Positions 2,567-60,544 of a stretch of DNA of 64,000 nt are shown piece after piece. Positions within the stretch are counted from its first letter, which is position 1. Each line of letters starts with the position of its first letter. This stretch comes from Prorocentrum cordatum (Eukaryota; Sar; Dinophyceae; Prorocentrales; Prorocentraceae). The stretch covers positions 336,979 to 400,978 of the forward strand of contig CAUYUJ010000758.1 of NCBI GenBank assembly GCA_963575745.1. Reading direction: 5' to 3'. The position numbers and the translations under genes were made by a program. The notes beneath the pieces are model-generated. The model saw only the letters and a list, made by a program, of their open reading frames with translations, was not told the DNA's origin and ran no database searches.

Positions 2567-4252
2567 TCAGATGATGAAAGGCCGAGCCAGGCGCTTCAGC
2601 TCGCGTGCGAGGAGGTTGACCAGGAGCCTGTTCCTGTCCGTCATGCCCTCGCTGTGGTGCAGGTAGACGTTGGCCACCACCACGCCTCCTGGAATCCATC
2701 CTTTCCAACATCTCAGCTGTGCTCGGCCACGTGCGATGCTGAACCTCGTGCTCACGCACGGATAGCTCGCCAGTCCTCGCCACGGCTGCGCTGCAATACA
2801 TAAGCCGCCGCTGGTGCCTCCACGTCCTGTGGGTACTGCTGGGTCCAGCTGCAGGTGCCACTTGGCTCGCTTCGCCCAGTCCTCCTGCGTCGCGCACGCC
2901 TCGGCGCCGCACAGATGGGTCTCCTGGCCCAAGAAGATGTCCGCTCGGCGTCCCTCCACATCCAGCAGCAGGTCGGTGAGGCTCGACCATGTGGTGCCGT
3001 TCGCCGTGATGGCTAGCGTGTGCTCGCTCTTCGGTTGCTTCGGCTTGGCCGCCCTCCGCCGTGCAGCTCGGGCGGTGAGCAGTGCGTGCCCCGAGGGGTC
3101 GGTGCTCTCTGCCGTCCTGGCGGCTCGGCCCGCAGTGAGCAGCGCGTGCCCCGAAGGGTCGGTACCCTCTGCTGCGGGCTCCGCCACCTGATGCGCCTTC
3201 GCAACCTCGGGCGCGGTCTTCCGCCGCTCCAGCGTGGCCGGGAGGATCGGGAGGGGGGCCGTGAGTACTCGCACCCTGCGGAGCTCCTCCTCCGACGCGA
3301 CCTGCATGTCAAGCAGACCGTCCTGCCCCACCTGCAGGAACGCGTTGCTGTAGTTGGCGTCCTTGATGAAGTGCTGGCCTGACCCATGATCTTCCACCGC
3401 CAGGAGGCCGATCCGCTTGAAGTAGAGCACGGTCTCGCCAATCAGCTCGAGCACCAGGTCCACGAACTGCGACGCCGACTGTGCGCGCTGCTGGGCCGCG
3501 TGGGGCTCCTCGACGTGGCCCTTGACGAAGACTAGGCCTGCGGGCACCCTGGCGCCATCCAGCGCCTCGTAGGACGGTGTGGCTCGGGTCGCATCATGCA
3601 TTGAGGCTGGGGTGGCATGTAGGGCCGCAGCCCCGTCGTTATAGCCAATCCCCGCCTGGACCCCAAACAGTGAATGCCCTTGGTCAGGAGCTCCGACGGC
3701 GACCGATCCGTGGGGCACTGGCCCTGCACCTCGGGCTCCGTCTGAAGCTGCGGCGTCGACAGGTGGCGCACGAAGAACAGGTGGTGCAACTCCATCCAGG
3801 ACAGCCAGTGCCGCCTCGGCCTCCACACGCGGCCGCGGGACCACCTGTCCCGCAGGGCCGCGCGGGCGCGGGGCCACCTGCCCCGCGGGCCGCGGCTGCT
3901 CCGGCGCATCACTCGCCAATGCAGCCAGCGCCGCCTCGGCCCCCACACGCGGCCGCGAGACCACCTGTCCCGCAGGGCCGCGCGGGCGCGGAGCCACCTG
4001 CTCCACTGGCCTTGCCTGCTCCAGCGCCACGGCATTCAAGGCACAGTCGACCTGGAGTGGGAGGGGGGACCCAGTGACCCTGCGAGGGGACTTGAGCCCC
4101 CGCTCGATGGTGACTGCCGCGCCGCGGCTGCCTGCAGCAGCTGCCGCCTCGCCGAGGAGGTGACGGGCCGCTTCGTCCTCCGCCTCCCGCGCGTCCTCCT
4201 GGACCAGGTCGGGCGCGACGACGGTGCTGTTGCTCTCGCCCAGGCTCGCCAT
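2567..4252 (-). pseudogene. LINE A ORF2, N-terminal part: repeat-rich leader and AP endonuclease N-half, ending at an in-frame TGA
   Basis: The ATG at 4250-4252 (MASLGESNS) lies 10 nt past the ORF1 stop. The first roughly 280 residues are alanine/proline-rich with two 40-codon tandem repeats (3817-4035, protein motif APRPRGPAGQVV) and a doubled DPSGHALLTA motif (3070-3180). The endonuclease follows: a beta strand with FLGQETHL (catalytic Glu, near 2915-2940), GGTSGGLCIA and VVVANVYLHH. The frame stops at TGA 2567-2569, directly before GDFN, the conserved endonuclease motif; the same frame continues downstream. The endonuclease would nick target DNA for target-primed reverse transcription. Confidence 0.8.
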
Positions 4253-4262
4253 GGTGACGAGG

Positions 4263-5440
4263 TCAGTACGGCCCAGCTCGCATGCGCGCTGCGGCCCCGA
4301 TGAGCGGGCTAGCGGCAAGGCGAGAAGCAATGGCGCGCATCCCCTCCAGGTCCGTCGGCATGTCGGGCGCGAGGGCAGCAGGCCACAGCTCGTCGAACTC
4401 GGCGCGCAGCGCCTCCTCGGATGCCTTGCCGATGGGGTCCTCGGCGCTGGGCACGGCTCGGGCGGCTGCTGCGCTTGCCGCGCCCACAGGGGGAGGAGCA
4501 GGGCGCTCCGTGGGCACCGCCAGCTGCGGCAGCAACTCCTCCAGGAGCTTGGACACCGCCTCGGCGTGGTCGCCGAAGCCGCGCTCCCCGCGCTTGGCCA
4601 CCAGCGCTGCCTTGTTGATGCCGAACGTGTGGGTGACCGCCCCCGTCTCGCTGCCCCCGTCAGCGGCTGGGCCAGCCTGAGCAGCGTCAGCAGCCATCAG
4701 CTCGTGCACCACGGCCTTGGCACGGCCGAGCTCGGTCTCGCACTGCTCCCGCTGGGTCTTGAGCTCCTCCAGGCGAAGCTGTGCTGCAGCGACGGCCTCC
4801 ACCTGCTGCGCCAGGTTGTCACCTGCCTTGACCAGGGCAGCCTCCTTCCGCTTGACGTCCCGACGGGCGATCTGGAGCTTGGCGTCCGCGGGCTTGGCGT
4901 CGTGCAGCTTCTTCCGCAGCTCGTCCAACTCCTTCTGGAAGGAGTCGATGACGCCCTTGTAGATGCCATCCACGTCGTCACGGCCCTTGAGCAGCTTGAT
5001 CTCGGCCGCCAGCGTGTCGGCGCGCTTCCGCAGCGCGGCGGCGCCTGCAGCTGGGGCCTCGACTGCTGAGCCGTCGGTCTCCATGTCGCCGTCCTGCGAG
5101 GACTTGCTGCGCAGCTCCTGCTCCAGCGCCGCGATCTTGCCCTCGTAGATCTTCTTGTACTTAGCCTCGGCACGAGTGTCTGCCACGCTGGGCGCGCGCG
5201 TCGAGGGGGCACCTCCACCAGCAGGTCGATTGCTGCCGAAACAGGCGCCCTTGTGCAACTTGCATTTTGTACACCGCATCGACGAACCTGGGTTCCACCA
5301 GCGCTCGCCTTTCGCATTCTTGCAGGCGTCCTTGCAGCAGCGGGCTTGTCGCGCACGGTGCCGCTGCCGACTGGACCGCCGCGTGGCGCCCTGCTGCCGC
5401 CGCCGCTACCCGCAGCCCAAGGGGGCCTCCTGGTCGCCAT
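4263..5440 (-). pseudogene. LINE A ORF1: zinc-binding cysteine motif plus long coiled coil
   Basis: The main open frame (4263-5279) codes for about 338 residues; its upstream continuation adds the cysteine-rich segment CCKDAC, followed by CTKCKLHKGACFG, a plausible zinc-binding knuckle. Next come long lysine/glutamate/alanine-rich heptad stretches (for example AEIKLLKGRDD and LRLEELKTQREQCETEL) typical of LINE ORF1 coiled coils that trimerise and bind RNA. The first good ATG after the leader (5438-5440) opens a frame beginning MATRRPPWAAGS, which differs by one register from the cysteine frame, so a single indel lies between about 5310 and 5420. The role in RNA binding is inferred from position and architecture; the protein has no motif that I can name more exactly. 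Confidence 0.65.
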
Positions 5441-46154: not shown

Positions 46155-46499
46155 CCCCCTCCTCCTCCTCCTCCTCCTCCTCCTCCTCCTCCTCCTCCTC
46201 CTCCTCCTCCTCCTCCTCCTCCTCCCTCCTCTCACACCCTCCCCGCCGGGAGAAGAGCCCACGGGGAGAGGGCCACGCCGCGCCGATCCACGGGCCAGGC
46301 CCCTGCAGGCCTCGTGCGCTCGGTGCACGGCCATGGGAACGAAACGTGGCATAAACATAGCTCGGACGCCAAATCGACGCCAACTCGACGCTTAACCGGA
46401 CGCTAGCTCGGCGCTACCTCATCGACTCCAGAGGCTCATCGACGCCGATCCACGCTGAAGACGGGGAATTGGGAGGGTACACCAGCTCCCATGATTCAG

Positions 46500-46689
46500 G
46501 GGGCGAACAATGACATAAACATAAAAACTCGGAGGTCGGCGCGGAGTTCTCGGATCCGCGCTGGACCCCCCTGGCGGCGCCTCCGGCGCCGCCCCTGGCG
46601 CGCCCCGCGCGCCAGGGAGGTTCCAGCGTGGATCCTTGAAATCCGCGAGGACCTCCGAGTTTTTAATGTTTGTGCCATTTTTCGTTCCC
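46500..46689. mobile_element. GGGAAC MITE, copy 2
   Basis: Left GCGAACAATGACATAAACAT, right TTTTTCGTTCCC. The arms AAAACTCGGAGGTC and GACCTCCGAGTTTTT are inverse; the GGCGCC-rich loop lies between. A stray end of the same family is at 46331-46360 (GGGAACGAAACGTGGCATAA). Confidence 0.8.
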
Positions 46690-46737
46690 ATAGCTCGGTG
46701 CACGGTAAGTCTCCGTGTCCATGGCAGCCCCTGCGCT

Positions 46738-48269: not shown

Positions 48270-48872
48270 GCCCGTACCACTAGATCGGGCACGTCCCCCC
48301 AGAGGCGGATGTTGGACGCAATTGAAACAGATGCCAACAAAGATCCCCCGAGTGGACGCACCTGCCGCCGCGGGGAGAACCTGCACCGGAGGAGGCACCA
48401 ATCCCTGGGCCCAGGCTCGGCCCGCCCAGGATCGGCCAGGTGGCCCCCCGCGACGGCTACACCCTGTGTGGGCAGACCTCAACGCGGCAGGCGCTCATGG
48501 AGCCGCTCTCCCCCAGCGAATCCACTGGTGAAACTTTCTGATCTCAGTCGAAAAAAACCTTTCGTGGTGCCTCAACGCCTTGGCGCAGCCGCCGAGACGT
48601 GTCTTGCACAACCTGGCTGGGCAATTGAGCAACTGGGGCCACAAGTCGCCTGAATGCGCCCGGTGGTCACAGCTTGCTCAGGCCGGATCCATCCGCGTGG
48701 TTGACACGGATGCTTCGGGACAGACAGGCTGGTCTTACCATCTGTGTCCCCACCCCCCCACCCCCCGATCCTGGCGGGGCTGGGGCCGCGCCCCAGGTGC
48801 CTGCGCAGCGCGGCGCACGCCTCGCGAGCAGGAGGCCGGCCACGCACCACCGTGCATGGAAGGCTCGTAGAT

Positions 48873-49038
48873 TTAGGTCGGGCCTGTCCCCCATACAGGG
48901 GGCTTTTGGACGACGAATTCAAAAAAAAGTAATCAAACAATACCCTAAAATATTTGAGAATGGTCAAAAAATCGTCCCCAGACTATTTTTTGCCTATTTT
49001 TGAATCTTCCTCCTGTAGAGGGACAGGCCCGACTTAAT
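48873..49038. mobile_element. MITE with 7-bp target duplication, copy 2 of the AATCGGG family
   Basis: Left end TTAGGTCGGGCCTGTCCC, right end GGGACAGGCCCGACTTAA. CGTAGAT stands directly outside on both sides (48866-48872 and 49039-49045). AT-rich interior, 166 bp, no ORF. Confidence 0.8.
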
Positions 49039-49426
49039 CGTAGATCTACGAACAGTCAAACTATTTTTCGCAGACTCGATGAACATTCCAAGAAGATGCA
49101 GATCGGGCTCGCAAATCTACGAACAATGGCGGATTCCGGAAACTCTGAAACACAAAAACGATTTCATCTTTTGGGGACACATCTTTTACTTCCGCCGCCT
49201 TCCGCTGGCCTTCCGCACGCATCCGCCGGCTTCCGCCAGCGGAGGCGGCCTCGTTTTACTTCCGACGACCTTCCGCCGCCTTCCGCGGAGAAGGAGGTGA
49301 TATGTCTTCCTATCCTCGAAAACAAGGCCCGTGTTCCAACGCCCCACATATAATGCTCGTAGGTCTACGAACAGCCCAACTATTTTTCCTGGACTCGACG
49401 ACAGCTTCAAGCTCGGGATACTTCAA

Positions 49427-58544: not shown

Positions 58545-59085
58545 TCACCACCACACCCCGTAACGGCTCAGCGCTGGCACCACCGCTTTCATGGCTTCCG
58601 CAGCCTGCTCGAACGAGGACGCCTTGGTGACGACCATCGAGCCCCTTCGATGCACGCGCACACCCACGTCGTGGCCCTCCACCAACACCAGCGCCTCCTG
58701 GCCGTCGCTCTGCTCTACCCGCAAGCCCCCTATCGGAATAGCTCTGGCTGCGCCCGGCTGGCAGGTCGCGGAGAGCTGCTCCACGTCCACATTAAACGGC
58801 AACGCGCACATCACCTGTACGTTCTCCACCCGGTAGCGCTTGAAGCCAACGTTGGCGGAATAGCGCTGCTGCAGCAGCCGGGCAGCCTTCTTCGCCGCAA
58901 TGCGAGCTTCCTCGTCGGGAAGAGTGGTGGACACGCGCACCTGGCCGTTGGCTTGGATCACCGCGCACCACTTGGGCGGCCGGAGCGAGCGCACTGTCAC
59001 TCTGCCCGAGTCAGCGCCCAGCTCCGCGTTGGGAACCGCCGCCGCCAACGCCACGGGGTCCACCGGTGCGCCGAGGTTAAGGGAA
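58545..59085 (-). CDS. TBP-family (TATA-binding-protein-like) protein, last exon with most of the saddle domain
   Basis: The frame reads NLGAPVDPVALAAAVPNAEL, RVTVRSLRPPKWCAVIQANG, QVRVSTTLPDEEARIAAKKA, ARLLQQRYSANVGFKRYRVE, NVQVMCALPFNVDVEQL, and in the second repeat VGVRVHRRGSMVVTKASS with EQAAEAMKAVVPAL. This follows the TBP/TBP-like-factor fold (NLG..LD...A...NAEY, R.PK..A.I...G.....T......A...A........G, the linker ..N......PF....L). About 180 residues cover both direct repeats, the usual core length. Many DNA-contact residues differ from canonical TBP, as in dinoflagellate TLF. It stops at TAG/TGA 58545. Expected role: promoter recognition in the nucleus. Confidence 0.7.
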
Positions 59086-59269
59086 CTAACAATGACATAA
59101 ACATGAAAACTTCAAGGTCCGAGCGGATTCCTCGGATCGGCGCTGGACACCCCTCCTGGTCGCGCGGAGCGCGCCAGGGGCGGCGGAGGCGCTGCAGGGG
59201 TCTCAAGCGCCGATCGTAGGAATCCGCGCGGACCTCTGGGTTTTCATGTTTACGTCCTGGTTCGTTCCC
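59081..59269. mobile_element. GGGAAC MITE, copy 3, forming a GA-AG intron of the TBP-like gene (introner candidate 2)
   Basis: Ends GGGAACTAACAATGACATAA and GTCCTGGTTCGTTCCC; the arms GGTCCGAGCGGATTCCTCGG and GGAATCCGCGCGGACCTC are inverse. On the minus strand GA at 59267-59266 and AG at 59087-59086 bound a 182-bp intron. Removal joins HLSG to SLNLGAPVD in frame. Removing 188 bp instead would give HLS-VNLG, also in frame. Confidence 0.7.
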
Positions 59270-59344
59270 CGAGAGGTGGAAGCTCGCCCCGTGGTGCCTC
59301 ACGCGCGGGTTCAGCAACGCTGCGGCGCCTTCCGCACTGCTGGC
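59268..59344 (-). CDS. TBP-like gene, middle exon
   Basis: Seventy-seven bp: ASSAEGAALLN-type start, then NPRVRHHGASFHLSG, running into NLGAPVD of the next exon. It lies between two inverted-repeat elements; both junctions keep frame (25 codons plus 2 nt, completed by the T at 59085). Confidence 0.55.
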
Positions 59345-59595
59345 CTTAGTGGGCTCCGGAAACGGCAGGGTCGTTTTTCACCGTTTTCGAAAAAGTGTCC
59401 CTTGAAAATGGAAACGGCAAAAAAAACGGCGACCAGAAAAGGCAACAAAAACGGCTCCAGGATTGGAACCGGAGCGGGAAGCCGCGAAAGAACGGCGACG
59501 GAACTGGGAAAACAACAGCGTCGGAACCGGCAACAAAAAACGGCAACACGGAACCGGGAACAAAAACGGCCCCGTCGTCTCCGGGGCCCACTGAG
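59345..59595. mobile_element. Inverted-repeat element with 8-bp target duplication, forming a GT-AG intron (introner candidate 1)
   Basis: Ends CTTAGTGGGCTCCGGAAAC and GTCTCCGGGGCCCACTGAG are inverse with three mismatches. CTGCTGGC stands directly outside on both sides (59337-59344 and 59596-59603). On the minus strand CTCA/GTGGGC gives the donor (GT at 59591-59590) and ACTAAG the acceptor (59346-59345); both flanking frames agree. The interior is AACGGC-rich degenerate sequence. Confidence 0.75.
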
Positions 59596-59898
59596 CTGCT
59601 GGCGCCTAGGGTGATCGCGGCGGCCGCGAGCTGCCCCGCCGCGAGAGCGCCGTCAGCGGCGGCCGCGGGCGGCGCGTCGGCGGCGGTGCTGGCCGCCCGC
59701 ACGGCCAGCGCCTGCGGCGGGTCGAAGGCGACGGCCAGCGCCTGCGGCGGGCACCCGTCCCGAGCGGGCCAGGCGCCGCCCGTGGGCACCATCGCCGCCC
59801 CCCGCGGCCGCCCCCAGAGCGCGCCCCGGCGGCGGCAGGCGGCGGCAGCCGCGGCCTCGAGCCGCTCGGCCAGCGTCGCCCCGCTCCCGCGCGTGTCG
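59592..59898 (-). CDS. TBP-like gene, upstream exon (partial)
   Basis: The frame reads LHDTRGSGATLAERLEAAAA, ACRRRGALWGRPRGAAMVPT, PPQALAVAFDPPQALAVRAA and AAGQLAAAAITLGASSS. Alanine-rich N-terminal region. It joins the middle exon in register across a GT-AG intron. The 5' limit and the start codon are unknown; a 90-bp-type repeat lies just upstream. Confidence 0.45.
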
Positions 59899-60544
59899 TG
59901 GAGAAAAGCGGCACAAATGTACGTACACTTGCTCGCAGGCGTCCCACCGACCAGTTCGGCGCACCCCTCACACGTTCCGTGGACACACGGTGGGCTCCAC
60001 CGAAGTCTCCTGTGGCAGGGTTCACATGCGACCCCCCGCCCGGTTCGGCGCCCCTCTCTACAGGCTTCGTGGCCCCACAGGAGCTTCCCCCCTGCTTCGT
60101 CCCACGTGCCTTGCGGTATTCACACTTGCACATGGTTGATTCCTTTGCCAAGATAATTTCTCTGGCGGGCTGGCCACTGCCCTGGCGTAGCGACAGAAAC
60201 AAATCCAGTTTGTTCCTGTCCCTGTTTCCCCAATCAGTGCTTGCACTGAAGGGGTCCTAGCGAATCTTGAAAGATTTGGCTACAATTCCGGGTCGATTTC
60301 AGTGGGCGATCGGGCTCCTGTATTCCCGGTTCTGGGTACCCGGGTTCCCGATTGCTGGTTCTAGGCCGAATTCGGTGGGCTACGGGGCTCACAGGTTTCC
60401 GGGCTTCCAGTCGATCTCCTTATCGATGTCTTTATCGATCTCACGATCGAACTCACTACCGATCTCATGGGCGATCTAACTATCTATTTCACTCTATCGA
60501 CATCACTATCGAGATTTCATTGTCGATTACAAGACGTAGACAAA

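Follow-up and report, generated by a model that had tools for sequence, protein, structure and literature searches.

A MITE-type element in the TATA-binding protein gene of Prorocentrum cordatum: a probable intron whose splice donor may come from the duplicated target

Is a repeat element that interrupts the coding region of a gene for TATA-binding protein (TBP) removed from the message as an intron, and if so, which bases serve as its splice sites? This question is raised by a locus within a stretch of 64,000 nucleotides of Prorocentrum cordatum DNA, referred to here as the window. A preliminary description had answered it with an inverted-repeat element that brings its own intron borders, a GT at one end and an AG at the other. 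The G+C content of the window was 57-70% in 2-kb steps, and the genome is reported to comprise 4.15 Gb in 22,724 scaffolds with 59.7% G+C (PMC10666404).

The gene that hosts the element lies on the minus strand, and its proposed identity as a TBP-like gene was borne out by the Pfam profile PF00352 and by comparison with solved TBP chains (Table 1). The TBP core is open over 188 codons with a clear codon bias. When the assembly was searched for further cores, only this one matched among 42 scored candidates, and no paralogs that might represent empty sites were found; since the core is single copy in the assembly, the cell would be expected to depend on a working message. When the TBP exon was compared with a protein database, 3,482 candidates were obtained, none of them at E 1e-3, and Rfam at gathering scores and a tRNA scan gave no match in the window. 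We also calculated a codon-position score trained on the TBP-core exon. One frame scored positive between about 59925 and 59605 and again over 59271-59344. To either side of the element the same frame scored highest, and the two stretches connect in frame across it.

A second inverted-repeat element, of another family, is located at 59078-59272, directly before the TBP core (arms 61/74 alike, with the 5-bp repeat GAGGT outside), and more copies of it occur in the window and in the retrieved loci. Its right arm reads IVSSLNLG, which we take to resemble the start of TBP. Reading of its sequence revealed no in-frame GT-AG junction; only GA donors fitted.

Table 1. Features of the TBP locus, in positions of the window. 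Splice sites are candidates predicted from the reading frames.
Feature	Positions	Strand	Remarks
Open frame with TBP core	58545..59111	-	PF00352, E 3.2e-13; solved TBP chains, best E 3.3e-8; exon start not fixed
Short exon flanked by the two repeat elements	59271..59344	-	From codon-position score; 3' limit approximate
Target duplication CTGCTGGC	59337..59344	.	Exact; downstream copy in gene sense
Candidate acceptor AG	59345..59346	-	Element end, then G
MITE-type element	59345..59595	-	251 bp; CTYAGTGGGCYCCGG inverted at ends
Candidate donor GT	59590..59591	-	Inside terminal repeat; in frame; adds 12 nt
Target duplication CTGCTGGC	59596..59603	.	Exact; upstream copy, GCCAGCAG in gene sense; would give GC donor
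Candidate donor GC	59602..59603	-	From duplicated target; in frame; message would be unchanged
Upstream TBP exon	59604..59925	-	Codon-position score positive in one frame; 5' limit approximate

The element ends in CTTAGTGGGCTCCGGA and, on the other side and read inwards, in CTCAGTGGGCCCCGGA, with 14 of 16 positions identical. Over 34 positions the terminal repeats match at 28, and each of the six mismatches is a transition. Together with the exact copies of CTGCTGGC on both sides, this agrees with the inverted-repeat element and 8-bp duplications of the preliminary description, although the span given there (59345..59603) includes the right-hand duplication along with the element and leaves out the left-hand copy. 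Among 3,610 pairs of identical 8-mers lying 60-800 bp apart in the window, the inner ends were alike at 14 or more of 16 positions in three, including the element in the TBP gene; a control with one end shifted reached 14 in 5 of 72,160 trials and never 15. Two further elements in the window, at 48865-49045 and 46321-46703, belong to other families and have inverted ends and exact 8-bp duplications (TCGTAGAT and CGGTGCAC).

The assembly (4,128,499,153 bp in 21,875 contigs) was searched for relatives of the element. The 20-bp consensus end gave, with at most one mismatch, 2,608 + 2,549 = 5,157 matches, and the reversed control gave none. Because a single element can match at both ends, these counts correspond to a family of some 2,600 to 5,200 elements. 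In a search with the element itself, the best 40 of 3,539 candidates were scored, and 39 other places were retrieved along with the region of the window. The retrieved set contained 43 full copies, one partial match being left out, and 25 of the 43 were flanked by an exact repeat of 8-10 bp when the ends were allowed to shift by at most one base. The consensus, built from 42 copies, is 249 bp long and its two ends match at 42 of 46 positions; copies in the family measure about 250 bp. The median divergence from the consensus was 4.8%, and that of the window copy 7.7%, for copies chosen as best matches to the window. A further 40 places, taken from the first exact end matches listed, held full copies in 16/20 and 14/20 loci. 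For 65 copies with canonical ends (loci L009-L088), the 8-bp duplication was exact in 37, had one mismatch in seven and two or more in 21, and thus had at most one mismatch in 44. Three loci (L034, L035 and L044) were seen to carry two family copies each within 5.5 kb.

The reading as a DNA transposon, in line with the cut-and-paste transposon that had been proposed, is well supported by the thousands of end matches, by the constancy of the ends and by 8-bp duplications that differ from site to site. The element is almost certainly a MITE, i.e. a non-autonomous cut-and-paste DNA transposon; it is presumably too short to encode a transposase.

If the element were kept in the message, the TBP frame would be shifted and a stop gained, whereas its removal joins both flanking exons in frame. 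Since retention shifts the frame and adds a stop, splicing is likely, and we consider it probable from the frames and the codon bias that the element is removed from the TBP message as an intron. It is unlikely that the element instead stays unspliced, either in a broken copy of the gene or because the assembled insertion is an unexpressed allele. Such a reading would fit with the second element, for which no in-frame GT-AG junction was found, but the open, codon-biased core of the assembly's only TBP match speaks against it. Another way to account for the locus is that the element landed in an intron that was already present, as P. cordatum introns are often long (mean 4,709 bp; PMC10666404). 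Against this, the duplication lies directly next to the element, taking out one target copy brings the exons together in frame and leaves nothing of an intron behind, and the codon bias reaches close to the element on both sides; we therefore regard a pre-existing intron as most improbable.

Two junctions keep the frame, one GT-AG and one GC-AG. The GT-AG junction, with a predicted intron of 247 nt, reads ...LGASSS-ASSAEG..., i.e. LGASSSASSAEG, and the splice of ASSS to ASSAEG named in the preliminary description is therefore indeed in frame. The claim that the splice sites lie within the terminal repeats holds to the extent that this junction is possible, but it is not the sole option, as a GC-AG junction with its donor in the duplicated target is also in frame, with a predicted intron of 259 nt and the predicted product LGASSAEG. 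The element is likely to serve as an intron, as had been proposed, and the GT-AG junction proposed for it has a rival.

According to the data reported for P. cordatum, donors are GC in 51.4%, GT in 24.7% and GA in 23.8% of cases, and acceptors are AGG in 79.7% (PMC10666404). The GC-AG junction is slightly favoured: GC is the commonest reported donor class, and the message would stay as it was before the insertion. The GC donors here look ordinary and are not strong. Given splicing, we would put the chance of the GC donor over the GT donor at a little over one half. Both splicing and the choice of donor are what we infer from the frames, the duplication and the codon bias. The account that we tentatively prefer, at somewhat less than an even chance as a whole, is as follows. 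A transposase that makes 8-bp duplications would have moved the MITE into one of the coding exons of TBP, with duplication of CTGCTGGC. The acceptor would be CCCACTAAG from the element, with G as the next base, and the donor would most likely be the GC that opens the duplicated target (in gene sense GCCAGCAG). The resulting intron would consist of one target copy plus the element, and the mRNA would be the same as before the insertion.

That the donor and the acceptor are both located in the terminal repeats (CTCA, then GT ... AG), with 12 nt or four codons added in frame, is possible but does not seem probable to us. This arrangement is in frame at TBP, and both GT and AG were present in 36 of 48 copies in the TBP orientation and in 37 of 48 in the mirror orientation; on the mirror strand the element of the TBP gene has a GT near its 5' end and an AG at its 3' end too. 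The 12 nt are composed of eight duplicated bases and four from the element, and the same 4+8 bp arithmetic, with an 8-bp duplication and element-borne splice sites, is published for the introners of Aureococcus sp. (Gozashti et al. 2022, PMC9860276). Aureococcus is, however, another lineage, and for the element in the TBP gene a second, message-neutral junction is possible. On the other hand, GT accounts for just 24.7% of the donors reported for P. cordatum, and with the consensus end CTTA the 12-nt scar gives a stop in one phase when the first target base is A or G. The coding-like copy C21870 is such a case and would gain a stop in the GT (12-nt) mode.

To return to the GC donor derived from the target, other copies of the family were examined for coding flanks and for the bases at the start of the target. 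GT, GC or GA stood at the target start, in the orientation of the TBP gene, in 21 of 48 copies. In addition to the general searches, we used coding-enriched patterns consisting of the repeat end plus VNS codons, in three phases and one orientation. These gave 20, 18 and 24 matches (some in more than one list), with 1, 0 and 2 for the reversed controls; 20/20, 9/18 and 10/24 were retrieved, the latter two sets being picked by eye for their coding look. Few of the retrieved loci were coding-like on both sides, and no clearly coding copy was seen, by judgement, at the 40 places from the listed exact end matches.

Five copies were judged coding-like on both sides: the window copy, L038, L103, L106 and C21870. 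Three of them came from the codon-enriched searches in one orientation. With canonical ends kept, the target in sense orientation starts with GC or GT in all five, a choice made post hoc. In L103 and L106 the target starts with G only with canonical ends, with one mismatch in each duplication; when the ends are shifted by one base, the duplications are exact and start with GG and TC. These starts lend weak support to a donor derived from the target. Pfam searches with the flank peptides of L038, L103, L106 and C21870 gave no match over the cut-off.

An automatic score gave a similar picture. With a same-frame margin of at least 0.3, 4 of 117 copy-orientations passed versus 5 of 234 frame-shifted controls, and with a margin of at least 0.2 the numbers were 8/117 versus 7/234; an alternative cut of the coding test gave 9 vs 9/116. 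The coding excess over the frame-shifted controls was thus at most about two-fold in this test. Of the eight copy-orientations with a margin of at least 0.2, six have GC, GT or GA as the first bases of the sense target, versus the 21 of 48 copies given above; the exceptions are L107 and C5055. With respect to copies between coding exons, the TBP copy is a likely introner, judging from its frames, but few other copies look coding, and these are coding-like at best.

The copy L103 (C16663:131611-132185) apparently has a further inverted-repeat insertion inside, and the locus runs into a high-copy repeat. At about 480-560 it contains a repeat that translates like ANIGGVPPPREEDSDL and is widespread in the genome (150 scored matches, of which three were read). 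The idea that L103 belongs to a multigene family was rejected, as the 150 scored matches (of 8,314 first-look candidates) mostly rest on the repeat at the downstream end, and three paralogs considered as empty sites were unconvincing on reading.

The duplicated targets resemble G(T/G/C)CCGG..C. Symmetrising the target gives GTCCGGAC, which ranked first of 256 palindromes relative to the flanks; single target sites were no more palindromic than column shuffles (1.25 vs 1.48 of 4 pairs). The published target motif of the P element is GTCCGGAC, and that of hobo (hAT) is GTNCGNAC (PMC3276498). These Drosophila elements also make 8-bp duplications at similar targets (PMC3276498, PMC7776569), but no transposase was linked to the ends of the family in the TBP gene (CTTAGTGGGCC). 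A domain search with PF21787 (P type) gave no match in the genome, and none in the control genomes as well. PF05699 (hAT dimerisation) gave eight matches over the cut-off, located in open frames at C20171:31927-32130 (G000) and seven other places, with one frame of 1,245 codons; these eight places are candidate transposases of the genome. Candidate mobilisers are hAT, P and others that make 8-bp duplications.

A broader view, which we regard as rather doubtful, is that the target preference of the transposase makes the splice donor, with the GT of the repeat as a back-up. Many duplications begin with G[T/C/A]; with the AG of the element they would give introns of the form G[C/T/A]...AG, followed by G, leaving the message unchanged, and such introns would be of the dinoflagellate type. 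The back-up GT would lie exactly 12 nt further in, the frame being kept either way except where the scar creates a stop, and a single gene could yield two isoforms differing by four codons.

Introners with 8-bp duplications, one of them adding 4+8 bp, are already published. None of the literature consulted names the family in the TBP gene; the work of Roy et al. 2023 on dinoflagellate introners was taken into account via a review (PMC11453091). The introners of the dinoflagellate Symbiodinium microadriaticum resemble the element in having terminal inverted repeats, and their donors are reported to be borrowed from the target, but they have 4-bp duplications as opposed to 8 bp here (PMC9860276). 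The same source reports that introners of different species share no homology unless the species are close. In P. cordatum itself, introns with inverted repeats at both ends are reported to be enriched, but the account cited defines these introner elements through general repeat features (inverted repeats of 8-20 nt, direct repeats of 3-5 nt) without naming a family (PMC10666404). The introner elements of the dinoflagellate relative Amoebophrya likewise carry inverted repeats at both ends of the intron, with direct repeats spanning its borders, but these direct repeats are of 3-5 nt and the splice motifs are described as mostly non-canonical (PMC7789003).

The family is concrete, high in copy number and fairly recent, so that insertion, target choice and the supply of splice sites can be studied together in one genome. 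If it is true that the donor comes from the duplicated target, the target preference of a transposase would be tied directly to the birth of introns and to the GC donors that make dinoflagellate introns unusual.
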